From contig NZ_BHZC01000001.1 in assembly GCF_003865135.1 (NCBI RefSeq), forward strand, positions 7,688,001 to 7,752,000: DNA of 64,000 bases. Direction: 5' to 3'. The notes beneath the pieces are model-generated. The model ran no database searches, was not told the origin of the DNA, and worked only from the letters and a program-made list of their open reading frames with translations. The first letter of the stretch is position 1. Every line of letters begins with the position of its first letter. Positions 24,600-41,702 of the stretch are shown here, piece by piece. The DNA is from Streptomyces chrestomyceticus JCM 4735 (GTDB lineage: Bacteria > Actinomycetota > Actinomycetes > Streptomycetales > Streptomycetaceae). The translations under genes and the position numbers were made by a program.

Positions 24600-25247
24600 A
24601 TGAAGATCTCTGCAGCCGCCCTGCTCTTCGACAACGACGGCACCCTCGTCTCCTCCATGGACTCCGTGAACCGCTGCTGGACCAGGTGGGCCGAGGAGTA
24701 CGGCATCACGCCCGGGGAATTCGCCCGGGTCGAGCTGCACGGCCGCCCGGCCGCCGAGATCATCGCTGATCTGCTGCCCGCCGCCCGGGTACCGGAGGCG
24801 CTGGCCCGGATCGATCAACTGGAGGTCGAGGACGTCCCGGGCGGCGTGGTCGCGCTGCCCGGCACCCTCGCGCTGCTGTCGCAGCTTCCGCCGGAGCGCT
24901 GGGCGGTCGTCACCTCCGCCACCGCCCGGCTGGCCGAGGCCCGGCTCGCCGAGGTCGGCATCCGTCCGAAGGCCCTGATAGCCGCCGACGACATCACCCG
25001 AGGCAAGCCCGACCCCGAGCCGTTCCTGCTGGCCGCCCGGCGGCTGGGCGTGGACCCGGCCGACTGCGTGGTCTTCGAGGACGCGCCCGCCGGGCTGCGG
25101 GCCGGCCGTGCGGCGGGCATGACCACCGTGGCGTTGACCACAACCCACCAGGCCGGTGAGCTGTCCGCCGACGTGATCGTCGAGAACCTGTCGGCGGTGT
25201 CCGTGCAGGCCACGGCGGACGGTCTGGAGATCACCACGGCGGACTGA
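24600..25247 (+). CDS. HAD-superfamily phosphatase (beta-phosphoglucomutase/sugar phosphatase-like)
   Basis: 215 aa. HAD motifs: I ALLFDNDGTLVSSMDSV (nucleophile and acid Asp; note DND in place of the commoner DxD/DLD spacing), II WAVVTSATARLA, III Lys in RGKPDPEPFLLAA, IV VVFEDAPAGLRAG. The cap domain with HGRPAAEIIADLLP resembles sugar-phosphate phosphatases. ATG 24600 lies 8 nt after TACCCT with no Shine-Dalgarno; likely leaderless. Cytosolic; substrate probably a small phosphorylated sugar, not provable here. Confidence 0.9.
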   Translation: MKISAAALLFDNDGTLVSSMDSVNRCWTRWAEEYGITPGEFARVELHGRPAAEIIADLLPAARVPEALARIDQLEVEDVPGGVVALPGTLALLSQLPPERWAVVTSATARLAEARLAEVGIRPKALIAADDITRGKPDPEPFLLAARRLGVDPADCVVFEDAPAGLRAGRAAGMTTVALTTTHQAGELSADVIVENLSAVSVQATADGLEITTAD

Positions 25248-25266
25248 CCCGCCGTCCACCCCTCGG

Positions 25267-25297
25267 TCAAGCCTGTCCGCCATACGGACAGGCTTGA
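25267..25297. promoter_or_regulatory. Perfect 13-bp inverted repeat upstream of the met leader ORF
   Basis: TCAAGCCTGTCCG (25267-25279) and CGGACAGGCTTGA (25285-25297) around CCATA. It can terminate the HAD gene, whose stop is 20 nt upstream. Its right arm also overlaps a TTGATC box (25294-25299) that could be the -35 of the leader promoter, so an operator role is equally possible. Confidence 0.55.
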
Positions 25298-25331
25298 TCG
25301 GTCCGTACGCCTGTCTGGTTTACTGGCGGAC

Positions 25332-25418
25332 ATGACCACGACGAGCAACCGCACCCCTGCGACCGAGGCGCTCCTGACGCCCGGTGCTCGTCGTATGTGT
25401 CGAATGTGTGACCGCTGA
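25332..25418 (+). CDS. Putative leader peptide ending in Met-Cys-Arg-Met-Cys, upstream of metNIQ
   Basis: A 28-codon ORF from ATG 25332, ending RRMCRMCDR then TGA (25416-25418). Five of its last seven codons before the stop are Met/Cys (Met22, Cys23, Met25, Cys26) or the Arg between them. A -10-like TTTACT (25319-25324) lies 7 nt upstream, so the ORF would start a leaderless mRNA. It sits about 210 nt before the methionine importer genes. The layout matches ribosome-sensing leaders: stalling at scarce Met or Cys could change folding or termination downstream. Existence as a translated peptide is inference. Confidence 0.5.
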   Translation: MTTTSNRTPATEALLTPGARRMCRMCDR

Positions 25419-25628
25419 GGGCCCCCGCCGAGCCTCGCGCCCCGAAGCGAGACCCGCCGCCTTGCGCCGTGCGAGACGTACACCGCCGTACCCCACGGAC
25501 CCGGCCGCCCCGCGTCACCGGAACCCGAAGCCGGGCCACCGCGCCCACAGCGCCCCCTCTCGGTCCTCCGTGCCGCACTCCGCAATGAATGCCCCGTGCC
25601 CGGCGGGCGAGCCGCCCGGCACACGACA

Positions 25629-26705
25629 GTGACGGAATTCCCAGTGATCACCACAACGGGCCTGACCAAGGTCTACCGCTCAGGAGACCGCGAAGTCACC
25701 GCCCTGGACGGCGTCGATCTGCACGTCCGCGAGGGCGAGGTGTACGGCGTCATCGGCCAGAGCGGCGCCGGCAAGTCCACCCTCATCCGCTGCGTCAACC
25801 TCCTGGAGCGCCCCACCTCCGGCACGGTCACCGTCGCCGGGCAGGAGCTGACCTCGCTGGCCGGCAACGGACAGCGCGCCAACGCCGCGCTGCGTGCCGC
25901 GCGCAGCCACATCGGCATGGTCTTCCAGCACTTCAACCTGCTGTCCTCGCGCACCGTCCAGGACAACATCGAGCTGCCGCTGGAGATCCTCAAGGTCGAC
26001 CGCCGCGAGCGCTCCCGCAAGGCCCTGGAACTGCTCGACCTGGTCGGTCTCGCCGACAAGGCCAAGGCGTACCCCGCCCAGCTCTCCGGCGGCCAGAAGC
26101 AGCGCGTCGGCATCGCCCGCGCCCTGGCCGGCGACCCCAAGGTGCTGCTCTCCGACGAGGCCACCAGCGCCCTGGACCCGGAGACCACCCGCTCCATCCT
26201 CCAGCTCCTGCGCGACCTCAACCGCCAGCTCGGCCTGACCGTGCTGCTGATCACGCACGAGATGGACGTCGTCAAGACGATCTGCGACTCGGCCGCGCTG
26301 ATGAAGAACGGCCGCGTCGTCGAGCAGGGCACCGTCTCCGAGCTGCTCGCCACCCCCGGCTCCGAGCTGGCCCGCGAGCTGTTCCCGGTCGGCGGCGAGC
26401 CCTCCGGACCGGACCGCACCGTCGTGGACGTCACCTTCCACGGCGAGGCCGCCACCCGCCCGGTGATCTCCGAGCTGTCCCGTACGTACAACGTGGACAT
26501 CTCCATCCTGGGCGCCGCCATGGACACCGTCGGCGGCAGGCAGATCGGCCGGATGCGCATCGAGCTGCCCGGCCGCTTCGAGGACAACGTCGTGCCCATC
26601 GGCTTCCTGCGCGAGCAGGGCCTCCAGGTGGACGTGGCCGGCGATCCGGCCGAGCCCGCGACGACGGCGCCCGCCGGCGCGCTGGTGAAGGAAGGTGCCA
26701 AGTGA
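25629..26705 (+). CDS. metN: Methionine ABC transporter ATP-binding protein MetN
   Basis: About 358 aa. ATPase of the D/L-methionine importer. Walker A GQSGAGKSTLIR, Q-loop GMVFQHFNLL, signature LSGGQKQRVGIARALAGD, Walker B VLLSDEATSALD, switch His ITHEMDVV; C-terminal NIL domain (EAATRPVISELSRTYNVDIS ...) that binds methionine for feedback inhibition. Start choices: GTG 25629 or GTG 25644 (VITTTGLTKVY); the latter has GACGGA upstream and fits the family start better, so ~5 residues are in doubt. The 3' end overlaps metI (GTGA). Confidence 0.95.
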   Translation: MTEFPVITTTGLTKVYRSGDREVTALDGVDLHVREGEVYGVIGQSGAGKSTLIRCVNLLERPTSGTVTVAGQELTSLAGNGQRANAALRAARSHIGMVFQHFNLLSSRTVQDNIELPLEILKVDRRERSRKALELLDLVGLADKAKAYPAQLSGGQKQRVGIARALAGDPKVLLSDEATSALDPETTRSILQLLRDLNRQLGLTVLLITHEMDVVKTICDSAALMKNGRVVEQGTVSELLATPGSELARELFPVGGEPSGPDRTVVDVTFHGEAATRPVISELSRTYNVDISILGAAMDTVGGRQIGRMRIELPGRFEDNVVPIGFLREQGLQVDVAGDPAEPATTAPAGALVKEGAK

Positions 26706-27478
26706 CCTGGTCGCAGATGCAGCCGCTGCTGTACAACAACACGCTCGACACGCTCTTCATGGTGTGGTGGTCGACGTTCTACGCCGTCCTGTTCGGCATC
26801 CCGCTCGGCGTCCTGCTGATCCTGACCGACCGCGGCGGCGTCCTGCAGAACGTCGTGGTCAACAAGATCATCGGCGCGGTGGTGAACATCGGCCGGTCCT
26901 TCCCCTTCCTGATCCTGATGGTCGCGCTGATCCCCTTCACGCGTCTGATCGTCGGCGTCTCCATCGGCCCCACCGGCGCGGTCGTCCCCCTGGTGATCGC
27001 CGCCATCCCGTTCTTCGCCCGGCTCGTCGAGGCCGCGCTGCGCGAGGTCGACCACGGGCTGATCGAGGCCGCCCAGTCGATGGGCGGCGGCACCTGGACC
27101 ATCGTCTTCAAGGTGCTGCTGCCGCAGGCGCTGCCCGCGCTGGTCGCGGCCGTCACCACCACCGTCATCACGCTGATCGGCTACTCCGCCATCGCCGGCG
27201 CGGTGGGCGGCGGCGGCCTGGGCAACCTGGCCTACACCTACGGCTACCTCCAGTACGAGACCAACCTCATGGTCATCACCATCGTGCTGCTGATCGTCCT
27301 GGTCGTCGCCGTCCAGTTGCTCGGCGACCTGATCGTGCGCAGGCTGGCCCGCCGCGGCAGCCGCGGCTCCTCCTCCGTACGCGTCGGACTGCGCAAGGCA
27401 CCCGCCCCGGCCACCGCCGCCGGACAGACCGACGGGGCCGCATCCGCCGACACCCCCAAGGAGCGGGTCGGCGCCTGA
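26702..27478 (+). CDS. metI: Methionine ABC transporter permease MetI
   Basis: 258 aa. Inner-membrane permease with five or so TM segments (TLFMVWWSTFYAVLFGIPLG, FPFLILMVALIPFTRLIVGV, VVPLVIAAIPFFARLVEAAL, ALVAAVTTTVITLIGYSAIA, LMVITIVLLIVLVVAVQLLG). The cytosolic coupling loop EAAQSMGGGTWTIVFKVLLP is the EAA motif that docks on MetN. The C-terminal ~45 residues are a hydrophilic, Arg/Ala/Pro-rich tail longer than in E. coli MetI. Starts at GTG overlapping the metN stop. Confidence 0.95.
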   Translation: MTWSQMQPLLYNNTLDTLFMVWWSTFYAVLFGIPLGVLLILTDRGGVLQNVVVNKIIGAVVNIGRSFPFLILMVALIPFTRLIVGVSIGPTGAVVPLVIAAIPFFARLVEAALREVDHGLIEAAQSMGGGTWTIVFKVLLPQALPALVAAVTTTVITLIGYSAIAGAVGGGGLGNLAYTYGYLQYETNLMVITIVLLIVLVVAVQLLGDLIVRRLARRGSRGSSSVRVGLRKAPAPATAAGQTDGAASADTPKERVGA

Positions 27479-27583
27479 GACCGGGTCCAGCGGACCCTCT
27501 TGAGCCCGGACCCTTTGCCGGGCGCACCCCGCGCGGAGCCGCCGGCCCCGCGCGACCGAGAAACCGAGATAGGGGCACTCTTC

Positions 27584-28447
27584 GTGCGTACCACCCGCAA
27601 CATCACCGTGGCCGTCGCCGCCGCGGCAGCCGTCGCCCTCGGCGCGAGCGCCTGCAGCGCGCCCTCCGACGTCTCCTCCTCCGGAGGGGGCAAGAAGGCC
27701 GACAGCAGCGCGCCGCTGACCGTCGCCGCCAGCCCCACCCCGCACGGGGCGATCCTCAACTTCGTCCGCGACAAGCTCGCCGCGAAGGAAGGGCTCAAGC
27801 TGGAGGTGAAGGAGTTCAACGACTACAACCTGCCGAACAAGGTCACCGAGGACGGCCAGGTCGACGCGAACTTCTTCCAGCACAAGCCGTTCCTGGACAC
27901 CTACAACAAGAAGAACGGCACCCACGTCGTGCCGGTCGTCAACGTGGCCATCGAGCCGCTCGGCGTCTACTCCAAGAAGGTCAAGAAGCTCTCCGAGCTG
28001 CAGGCCGGCAACACCGTCTCGGTGCCCAACGACCCGTCCAACGAGGGCCGCGCGCTCAAGCTGCTCGCCGACAACGGCGTCATCACCCTCAAGAAGGGCG
28101 TCGGCTCGGACGCGAAGCTGACCGACGTCGAGGACGCCAAGGGCATCAAGATCACCGAGCTGGAGGCCGGGCAGGTCGCGCCGCGCCTCGCCGACGTGGA
28201 CGCCGCCGTCATCAACGGCAACTTCGCCATCGGCGCCCAGCTCAAGCCCTCCACCGACGCGCTCGCCCTGGAGAAGGCCGAGGGCAACCCGTACGCCAAC
28301 TTCCTGGCCGTCAAGAAGGGCAACGAGGACGACCCGCGGGTCAAGAAGCTGGCGAAGTTGCTGAACTCGCCCGAGGTCAAGAAGTTCATCGAGGACAAGT
28401 ACACGGACGGCTCGGTGATCCCGGCGTTCGGCGCTCCGCAGAGCTGA
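27584..28447 (+). CDS. metQ: Methionine-binding lipoprotein MetQ (NlpA family)
   Basis: 287 aa, GTG 27584 after AGGGG. Signal peptide VRTTRNITVAVAAAAAVALG followed by a lipobox-like ASAC, giving a lipid-anchored Cys, then a Ser/Gly/Lys linker and the NlpA solute-binding domain: VAASPTPHGAILNFVRDKLA, DGQVDANFFQHKPFLDTYNK, VPVVNVAIEPLGVYSKK, NDPSNEGRALKLL, VAPRLADVDAAVINGNFAI. It captures methionine outside the membrane for MetNI. 105 nt separate it from metI, enough for an extra promoter, but none is evident. Confidence 0.95.
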   Translation: MRTTRNITVAVAAAAAVALGASACSAPSDVSSSGGGKKADSSAPLTVAASPTPHGAILNFVRDKLAAKEGLKLEVKEFNDYNLPNKVTEDGQVDANFFQHKPFLDTYNKKNGTHVVPVVNVAIEPLGVYSKKVKKLSELQAGNTVSVPNDPSNEGRALKLLADNGVITLKKGVGSDAKLTDVEDAKGIKITELEAGQVAPRLADVDAAVINGNFAIGAQLKPSTDALALEKAEGNPYANFLAVKKGNEDDPRVKKLAKLLNSPEVKKFIEDKYTDGSVIPAFGAPQS

Positions 28448-41223: not shown

Positions 41224-41295
41224 TGGACGATACTGGGATTGAACCAGTGACCTCTTCCGTGTCAGGGAAGCGCTCTCCCGCTGAGCTAATCGTCC
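41224..41295 (-). tRNA. tRNA-Val (anticodon GAC), copy 1
   Basis: 72 nt. Acceptor GGACGAT/ATCGTCC, D-arm TAGCTCAGCGGGAGAGC, anticodon stem CTTCC/GGAAG with loop CTGACAC (GAC), T-arm CTGGTTCAATCCCAG, discriminator A, no encoded CCA. Last gene of the cluster. Confidence 0.96.
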
Positions 41296-41329
41296 TCGGG
41301 ACCGCGGCCGGGGGCCGCGGGGTGCTGCG

Positions 41330-41401
41330 TGCGCGATACTGGGATTGAACCAGTGACCTCTTCCGTGTCAGGGAAGCGCTCTCCCGCTGAGCTAATCGCG
41401 C
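41330..41401 (-). tRNA. tRNA-Val (anticodon GAC), copy 2
   Basis: Same as copy 1 except for the acceptor stem, which here is GCGCGAT/ATCGCGC; both changed positions are compensated on the other arm, so the stem is intact. Confidence 0.96.
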
Positions 41402-41448
41402 GGGTTCCGCCCTGCCCGAAGGCCGGGGGATCGGTCCTTGCGGACCAG

Positions 41449-41520
41449 TGGACGATACTGGGATTGAACCAGTGACCTCTTCCGTGTCAGGGAAGCGCTC
41501 TCCCGCTGAGCTAATCGTCC
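41449..41520 (-). tRNA. tRNA-Val (anticodon GAC), copy 3
   Basis: Identical to copy 1 over its mature length (acceptor GGACGAT/ATCGTCC, anticodon loop CTGACAC). One nucleotide separates it from tRNA-Cys. Confidence 0.96.
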
Positions 41521-41521
41521 T

Positions 41522-41595
41522 TGGAGGTGGAGACGGGATTTGAACCCGTGTAGACGGCTTTGCAGGCCGTTGCCTCGCCTCTCGGCCACTCCACC
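41522..41595 (-). tRNA. tRNA-Cys (anticodon GCA)
   Basis: Acceptor GGTGGAG/CTCCACC, anticodon stem ACGGC/GCCGT with loop CTGCAAA (GCA), T-arm CGGGTTCAAATCCCG, discriminator U, and an encoded CCA at 41522-41524, unlike its neighbours. Confidence 0.96.
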
Positions 41596-41629
41596 AGGAG
41601 TGCGGGGGTCGGGAAGATCCCCCACTTCG

Positions 41630-41702
<73 letters not shown>

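Follow-up and report, generated by a model that had tools for sequence, protein, structure and literature searches.

What is the role of a 28-codon reading frame, its end crowded with methionine and cysteine codons, that lies immediately ahead of an operon for methionine import? The window analysed here, a 64,000-nucleotide stretch of the Streptomyces chrestomyceticus JCM 4735 genome, contains such a frame, and a sequence-only reading of the window had proposed that it is a leader peptide on which ribosomes stall when methionine or cysteine is scarce.

The reading frame and its surroundings

The frame is as that reading described it, running from an ATG at 25332 to a TGA at 25416-25418, and the gene order around it is HAD-type hydrolase, 28-codon ORF, metN, metI, metQ. 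The features of the locus are:

25275..25289, no strand assigned: GTCC-N7-GGAC palindrome GTCCGCCATACGGAC, candidate operator
25319..25324, + strand: -10 box TTTACT, 7 nt before the leader ATG
25332..25418, + strand: leader peptide ORF MTTTSNRTPATEALLTPGARRMCRMCDR, 28 codons, by sequence the ortholog of S. lividans metL (frame-kept lengths, conservation and the metL entry of PMC8079986)
25395..25409, + strand: putative sensor codons Met22 Cys23 Arg24 (CGA) Met25 Cys26 (see the CGA-AUG counts below)
25632..25636, + strand: Shine-Dalgarno-like ACGGA of metN
25644..26705, + strand: metN, ATPase with a C-terminal NIL domain (ABC_tran 1.3e-35, NIL 8.6e-20), GTG 25629 being an alternative start
26702..27478, + strand: metI permease, its GTG overlapping the metN stop, named from its place and tblastn matches
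27500..28447, + strand: metQ ORF, NlpA lipoprotein (Lipoprotein_9 1.4e-85)

An ABC ATPase with an NIL domain (MetN) and an NlpA lipoprotein (MetQ) place the operon in the methionine-importer family. The start of metN is most likely GTG 25644 or GTG 25629, and the true start of metQ probably lies further inside its ORF. No gene intervenes between the leader and metN, again in keeping with the earlier description, and the distance from the leader stop is 225 nt to GTG 25644 and 210 nt to GTG 25629. At Rfam gathering scores eight tRNAs and nothing else were found in the window; no SAM or other riboswitch family reached that score, in agreement with the earlier remark that no SAM riboswitch is obvious in the leader. 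Five of the tRNA genes are consecutive on the minus strand (41224-41702), with the three others elsewhere in the window.

The ending of the frame stands out from its background. Of all ORFs with 15-60 codons in the 64-kb window, 423 in number (one per stop, both strands), the leader ORF is the sole case with at least four Cys or Met in the last eight residues, and it has the clustering of relevant codons near the stop that is expected of an attenuator. Within this genome the pattern of the ORF end occurs exactly once, with 28 matches at three mismatches against 22 in the control, and the hairpin that follows the stop (H2, below) also occurs exactly once, with two more at two mismatches against 2 in the control. 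The leader peptide has no NCBIfam model and the leader element was unmatched in the plasmid collection.

Occurrence and constraint among relatives

A close metN ortholog is present in 143 of 150 genomes of the genus, the other seven giving E 1e-54 at best or weaker matches to related ATPases. The upstream regions of 138 of these 143 were examined and the leader ORF is found in 137, the one miss (L136) lying at a contig end with 152 nt of upstream sequence available. Further metN loci have the leader in 84 of 91 cases (23 of the 84 set by hand, and four belonging to genomes that had been counted before); L172 carries a longer form that was read by eye. With L172 included, all 84 family loci of this further set carry the leader, as does Actinomadura rubrisoli (L224), which together with Kitasatospora (L221, L222) makes up the named carriers outside Streptomyces. 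Six loci are without a leader by the criterion used, those of Agrococcus, Brevibacterium, Sphaerisporangium, Cellulosimicrobium, Cellulomonas and Arthrobacter. Of 17 family genera surveyed the loci cover 15, the remaining two having given no close metN, and the leader is present at each intact metN locus of the family that was examined.

A covariance model built on the ORF end and the hairpin after the stop matched 175 of 197 genomes in the order, 44 of 394 in the class (39 in the own genus, plus three strong matches in one other family and two weak ones) and 9 of 296 in the phylum, all nine of the own genus; these counts are lower bounds, since strict filters and the dependence of the model on the hairpin lose diverged copies. 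The three loci in the other family each lie directly before metNIQ. The two weak class-level matches (G365, G341) have neither the CGAATG-stop motif nor metN and were rejected. Seventeen of the 29 genomes that lack a close metN ortholog were searched, and 15 of these are without the element at E 0.1; the exceptions are G001, a strong match at a contig end beyond which metN would lie, and G177 (E 0.067). As the model misses leaders without H2, absence in two g3 genomes says little.

Most of the counts that follow were made on 217 leaders, a set without L139 (same genome as L020) and without L144, L148, L149 and L167 (genomes already in the first set); L211 and L058, whose contigs are equally long, are probably the same genome, and the set may hold further duplicates. 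The distance from CCCGGT to CGAATG within the ORF takes ten lengths, all of them multiples of three, in 178 of the 179 leaders that have both motifs, an eleventh length (L170) having been dismissed as a false regex match. Between the stop and the H2 loop 21 different lengths occur, distributed over all three phases (183 of 217 leaders). Length changes that are in frame inside the ORF and of any phase after its stop argue that the leader ORF is translated; the test is favoured by the choice of ORFs for openness, yet the contig-end locus is the sole loss among the 138. The evidence for a short translated 5' leader ORF, as attenuators have, is thus evolutionary, consisting of frame-preserving lengths and conservation.

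The constraint extends to the nucleotides. CGA-AUG is in frame in 215 of the 217 leaders (the exceptions are L080 and L125) and lies exactly six codons from the end, stop included, in 202. Among the leaders that are 28 residues long, 109 in all, Arg24 is invariably CGA where Arg occupies that position (106 leaders), TGT encodes Cys23 in 101 of 102, and GGT, GCT and CGT are found at codons 18, 19 and 20 in 105, 104 and 91 cases respectively; third codon positions are near-invariant at most leader codons, rare ones included. It had been suggested that the ORF and its Cys/Met end might be conserved while the flanking DNA varies. Both are indeed conserved in relatives, but the pattern is not that of a conserved peptide in varying DNA, as the conservation is at the nucleotide level, the hairpins covary and the sequence is near-invariant past the stop. 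Judged by these comparisons, both the reading frame and the RNA constrain the leader codons. The RNA features of the leader are:

25338..25394, + strand: H1, intra-ORF hairpin in which codons 3-5 pair with 19-21 around inner stems, which covaries and folds so in the window
25419..25433, + strand: conserved GGGCCCCCGC stretch directly after the stop
25434..25451, + strand: H2, hairpin CTCGC-GCCCCGAA-GCGAG with a near-invariant loop, sole exact copy in the genome
25452..25590, + strand: variable C-rich, G-poor spacer
25596..25622, + strand: H3, hairpin directly 5' of the metN ribosome-binding site
25616..25636, + strand: segment complementary to the sensor-codon region 25392-25412

Covariation was followed in alignments A1 and A2, which hold 74 of 105 representatives and omit nine members of genera g2, g3 and g5 together with a further 22 that are diverged; another alignment, A3, uses 38 of the 41 rows listed for it. 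A 26-pair structure consisting of H1 with its inner stems and H2 has 95.1% of cells paired across the 74 sequences and 11 pairs with two-sided changes, which none of 500 shuffles reached, although the structure was derived from members of the alignment, so that the slid control favours it. H3, with nine pairs, has 91.5% of cells paired and two-sided changes at 8 of 9, again with 0 of 500 shuffles, in a count on A2 that includes one row with wrong coordinates (L208) and that still gives 70.2% when slid by -2 columns; for both structures the shuffle controls ignore relatedness. RNAalifold on A1 returned 10 pairs only, which make up the inner ORF stem and two pairs next to it. When 20 leaders were folded singly the ORF hairpin had z-scores from -3.0 to 1.1, that of the window being -2.9, and the three Kitasatospora-like leaders, in which H1 is weak or absent, were the worst of the 20 (z 0.5 to 1.1).

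H2 is missing in some lineages. Its loop GCGCCCCGAAGCG (25434-25451) is letter-identical in Actinomadura (L224:965-1099) and lost in some closer relatives. In one genus of the family (L173, L174, L179) the RMC ending is kept, the hairpin after the stop is lost and metN lies some 100-120 nt away; these three loci are a natural deletion experiment.

How the leader may control metNIQ

The sequence-only reading had noted a -10-like box close to the leader ATG, and TTTACT at 25319-25324 does end 7 nt 5' of it, a spacing from which a leaderless transcript is predicted. Among relatives TCTG-N-TT[TA]A[CAG]T precedes 194 of the 217 leaders and ends 6-7 nt before the ATG in every one of the 194, the other 23 having mostly TTTACT or a close variant without TCTG. 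The transcript would therefore begin at the start codon and not downstream of 25334, as predicted in this strain from the -10 box and as recorded by RNA-seq for the leaderless S. lividans ortholog in the metL entry of PMC8079986. A strict consensus scan of 25200-25700 gave neither a sigma-70 promoter nor a terminator-like site.

We consider it likely that the leader is a leaderless ribosome-mediated attenuator, in which a stall at Cys/Met codons when charged tRNA is scarce relieves repression of metNIQ. Transcription would start at the ATG of the 28-codon ORF, and the speed of the ribosome over the terminal Cys/Met codons would report on charged tRNA-Cys and tRNA-Met. With charged tRNA in ample supply the ribosome would finish and depart and metNIQ expression would be kept down; with charged tRNA scarce it would stall on the sensor codons, the fold or exposure of the leader would be altered and metNIQ would be expressed. 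We infer the stalling, the amino acid sensed and the direction of control; the conservation, the constraint on translation, the ending, the hairpins and the position are there in the genomes compared.

Three other accounts of the locus have to be set against this attenuator. Control might be exerted mainly at the promoter, with the leader secondary, through the palindrome GTCCGCCATACGGAC, a candidate operator of which versions (GTCC-N6-8-GGAC within 120 nt upstream) are found at 186 of 217 leaders against 1.1% of shuffled upstreams, and start 56-58 nt before the leader ATG in 145 of the 186. In this species it is the core of a perfect 13-bp inverted repeat (25267-25297). SCO1557 and SCO1559 are metNIQ numbers in S. 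coelicolor. In a study of NdgR in that species (PMC4340878) the main text contains none of the words metN, SCO1557 and SCO1559, which counts against the promoter account; the NdgR motif is given there as a 15-bp imperfect palindrome, [GT]T[CT]CAC[CA][CTA][TC][GC][TC]GGAC, with which the window site has GTCC-N7-GGAC in common, but the inner bases differ and the full printed consensus is unmatched. The palindrome is a candidate NdgR-like operator. As 31 of the 217 loci keep the leader yet lack the palindrome by the pattern used, control mainly at the promoter seems distinctly unlikely. An untranslated structured RNA, such as a riboswitch, overlapping an incidental ORF would account for the near-invariant third positions, the covarying hairpins and the near-invariant H2 loop, and conservation of the ORF at the nucleotide level could indeed mean a structured RNA with another ligand; it is hardly probable, however, given that length changes are in frame inside the ORF and not outside it, that the -10 box puts the ATG at the transcript start, that the Cys/Met ending is kept across 99 distinct tails and that no Rfam family reaches gathering score. 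The peptide might itself be the product, thiol- or metal-binding or acting in trans, as its CMCRMC-type ending would allow, but its fixed place before metNIQ, its absence from most genomes without metN and its nucleotide-level constraint make this very improbable indeed.

If the leader is an attenuator, the route from a stalled ribosome to metN could be one of two, and we have a slight preference for pairing at the ribosome-binding site (RBS) over the loading of Rho on the spacer. In the first, which we put forward tentatively, the RNA of the sensor codons would pair just 5' of the metN Shine-Dalgarno, and a stalled ribosome would block this pairing so that H3 forms and metN is translated. Two six-pair blocks are pairable in 92% and 88% of cells, against 5-78% when slid, in 54 main-group Streptomyces representatives (100 of the 105 representatives, chosen at a 90% cut, had the anchor for this count), and H3 covaries and its 3' arm overlaps the partner segment. 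Swapped partners, shuffled tails and RBS openness were examined with the 105 representatives. In the main Streptomyces group real tails are 5.6 kcal/mol better than mononucleotide-shuffled ones at -30..-11, but over dinucleotide-shuffled tails they have no clear advantage at the majority of 40 loci (P from 0.02 to 0.95, with 0.05 or less in four and 0.30 for the window), and 6.5% of swapped-partner permutations are at least as good. Pairing also differs little from shuffled controls (87.7% against 86.8%), its four two-sided pairs being reached by 129 of 500 shuffles, and in the Kitasatospora-like group it is not found at that place; 17% of core cells are paired in the Kitasatospora-like and g3 groups. 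Folding, which had been suggested as a check for terminator or RBS-masking structures, shows a slight opening of the RBS and supports masking weakly: blocking the sensor codons lifts predicted openness merely from 0.426 to 0.454, and by more than 0.05 in 32 of the 105, with a fall in 7. A classical 1:2:3:4 attenuator, in which the 3' arm of the ORF hairpin pairs downstream, was sought by eye and set aside, the matches being short and patchily kept.

In the second route, which is possible if on the doubtful side, a finished ribosome would leave the C-rich spacer naked, Rho would load and transcription would end before metN, with stalling altering the loading. The spacer keeps its composition while its sequence and length vary, and it is C>G throughout, a combination that suggests Rho: C exceeds G in each of the 204 relatives' spacers that reach 40 nt (the remaining 13 of the 217 are too short), with a mean C-G of 0.169, and the three loci of the other family are positive too (0.12-0.16). 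By comparison, among 35 5' intergenic regions of the window (crude gene calls) C exceeds G in 18 and the mean is 0.017. The want of a terminator-like site in 25200-25700 would fit, and Rho is raised as a weak possibility in the discussion of mycobacterial cys leaders in PMC1262725. The case is one of composition only, however; four intergenic regions elsewhere in the window have a higher C-G than the metN leader, the spacers cannot be counted as independent samples, and the spacer would not lie under a ribosome that stalls upstream of it.

Whichever route is taken by the attenuator, there is the question of which amino acid it senses. The earlier proposal was methionine or cysteine, and both kinds of codon are indeed kept at the end of the leader, Cys about as well as Met. 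At least two Cys are found in the last 14 residues of 214 of 220 leaders and at least two Met in 193, and Cys outnumbers Met in 113 of the 220, equals it in 84 and is outnumbered in 23. By position in the 28-residue class (n=109) the counts are 98 for Cys21, 90 for Met22, 102 for Cys23, 106 for Met25 and 77 for Cys26. Met25 lies within the near-invariant CGAAUG, and its constancy may therefore not speak for sensing. Outside the family, the tails of L224 and the three other-family loci contain 3-5 Cys. In L125 the tail holds four Cys, and Met is missing from it. From these tails we lean towards cysteine, or both, rather than methionine alone. Streptomycetes can make cysteine from methionine, and a shortage of cysteine is thus a reason to import methionine. 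A more specific proposal, which at present we regard as possible rather than expected, is a two-amino-acid sensor in which Cys and Met codons alternate on either side of a CGA-AUG that is invariant, presumably slow and set at a constant distance from the stop, on a covarying RNA scaffold, and which would couple both sulfur amino acids to methionine import. If this were true, one leader would serve Cys and Met in an actinobacterial family and in some members of others. The leader offers a sharp test here, namely whether a Cys or a Met codon is the waiting point of the ribosome.

Relation to known leaders

The closest known system is metL (SLIV_29928), listed in Table 4 of the S. lividans TK24 reannotation upstream of metNIQ with the peptide MSTTSDRTPATEATTTPGARCMCRRMCAF (PMC8079986), which recurs letter for letter in L013 and L021. 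In that table and the passages on it metL has a leaderless transcription start, its termination is called unclear, and it is grouped as methionine-dependent with several methionines and threonines noted. The two leaders are alike in place before metNIQ, in length class, in their near-identical peptides and in the leaderless start, which for the window leader is predicted, and by sequence the window leader is the ortholog of metL; since a leaderless attenuator for methionine has been published in metL, the idea of such a leader ahead of metNIQ is not new, and novelty lies below what the sequence-only reading supposed. The open-access full-text literature yielded nothing on this leader beyond S. 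lividans metL. In that table and the passages on metL the Cys codons, nucleotide-level constraint and distribution are not treated, and what is added here is the fixed codons, the compensatory changes in three hairpins, the near parity of Cys with Met, the NdgR-like palindrome and the C-rich spacer. The same source describes a trp leader before trpE in S. lividans which is likewise a leaderless short ORF rich in the regulated amino acid, but for which hairpins and a uridine-rich stretch are given as the terminator; none was found in the metN leader.

Leaders with cysteine codons have been described in other genera. The candidate cys leader peptides of Mycobacterium, Propionibacterium and Bifidobacterium, as set out in the section on them in PMC1262725, resemble the present leader in having Cys codons near the stop and no conserved terminator, with Rho named as possible, and differ in their genes and genera and in their runs of Cys codons, with no metN case among them. 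A precedent is in M. smegmatis, where cysteine attenuation by leaderless ORFs was described by Canestrari et al. 2020, as cited in PMC9031893. As far as that citing account goes, the mycobacterial polycysteine leaders and the metN leader have in common a leaderless ORF that heads the message, Cys codons, ribosome speed as the signal and control of the genes downstream, the last two being putative for metN. The mycobacterial leaders have a contiguous run of Cys, whereas in the window and most of its relatives Met, Cys and Arg codons alternate, and unlike them the leader described here has a fixed CGA-AUG, an importer as its likely target and hairpins that covary in and after the ORF. If the attenuator proposed here is borne out, leaderless attenuation of the cysteine type would extend from the mycobacteria to methionine uptake across the Streptomycetaceae.
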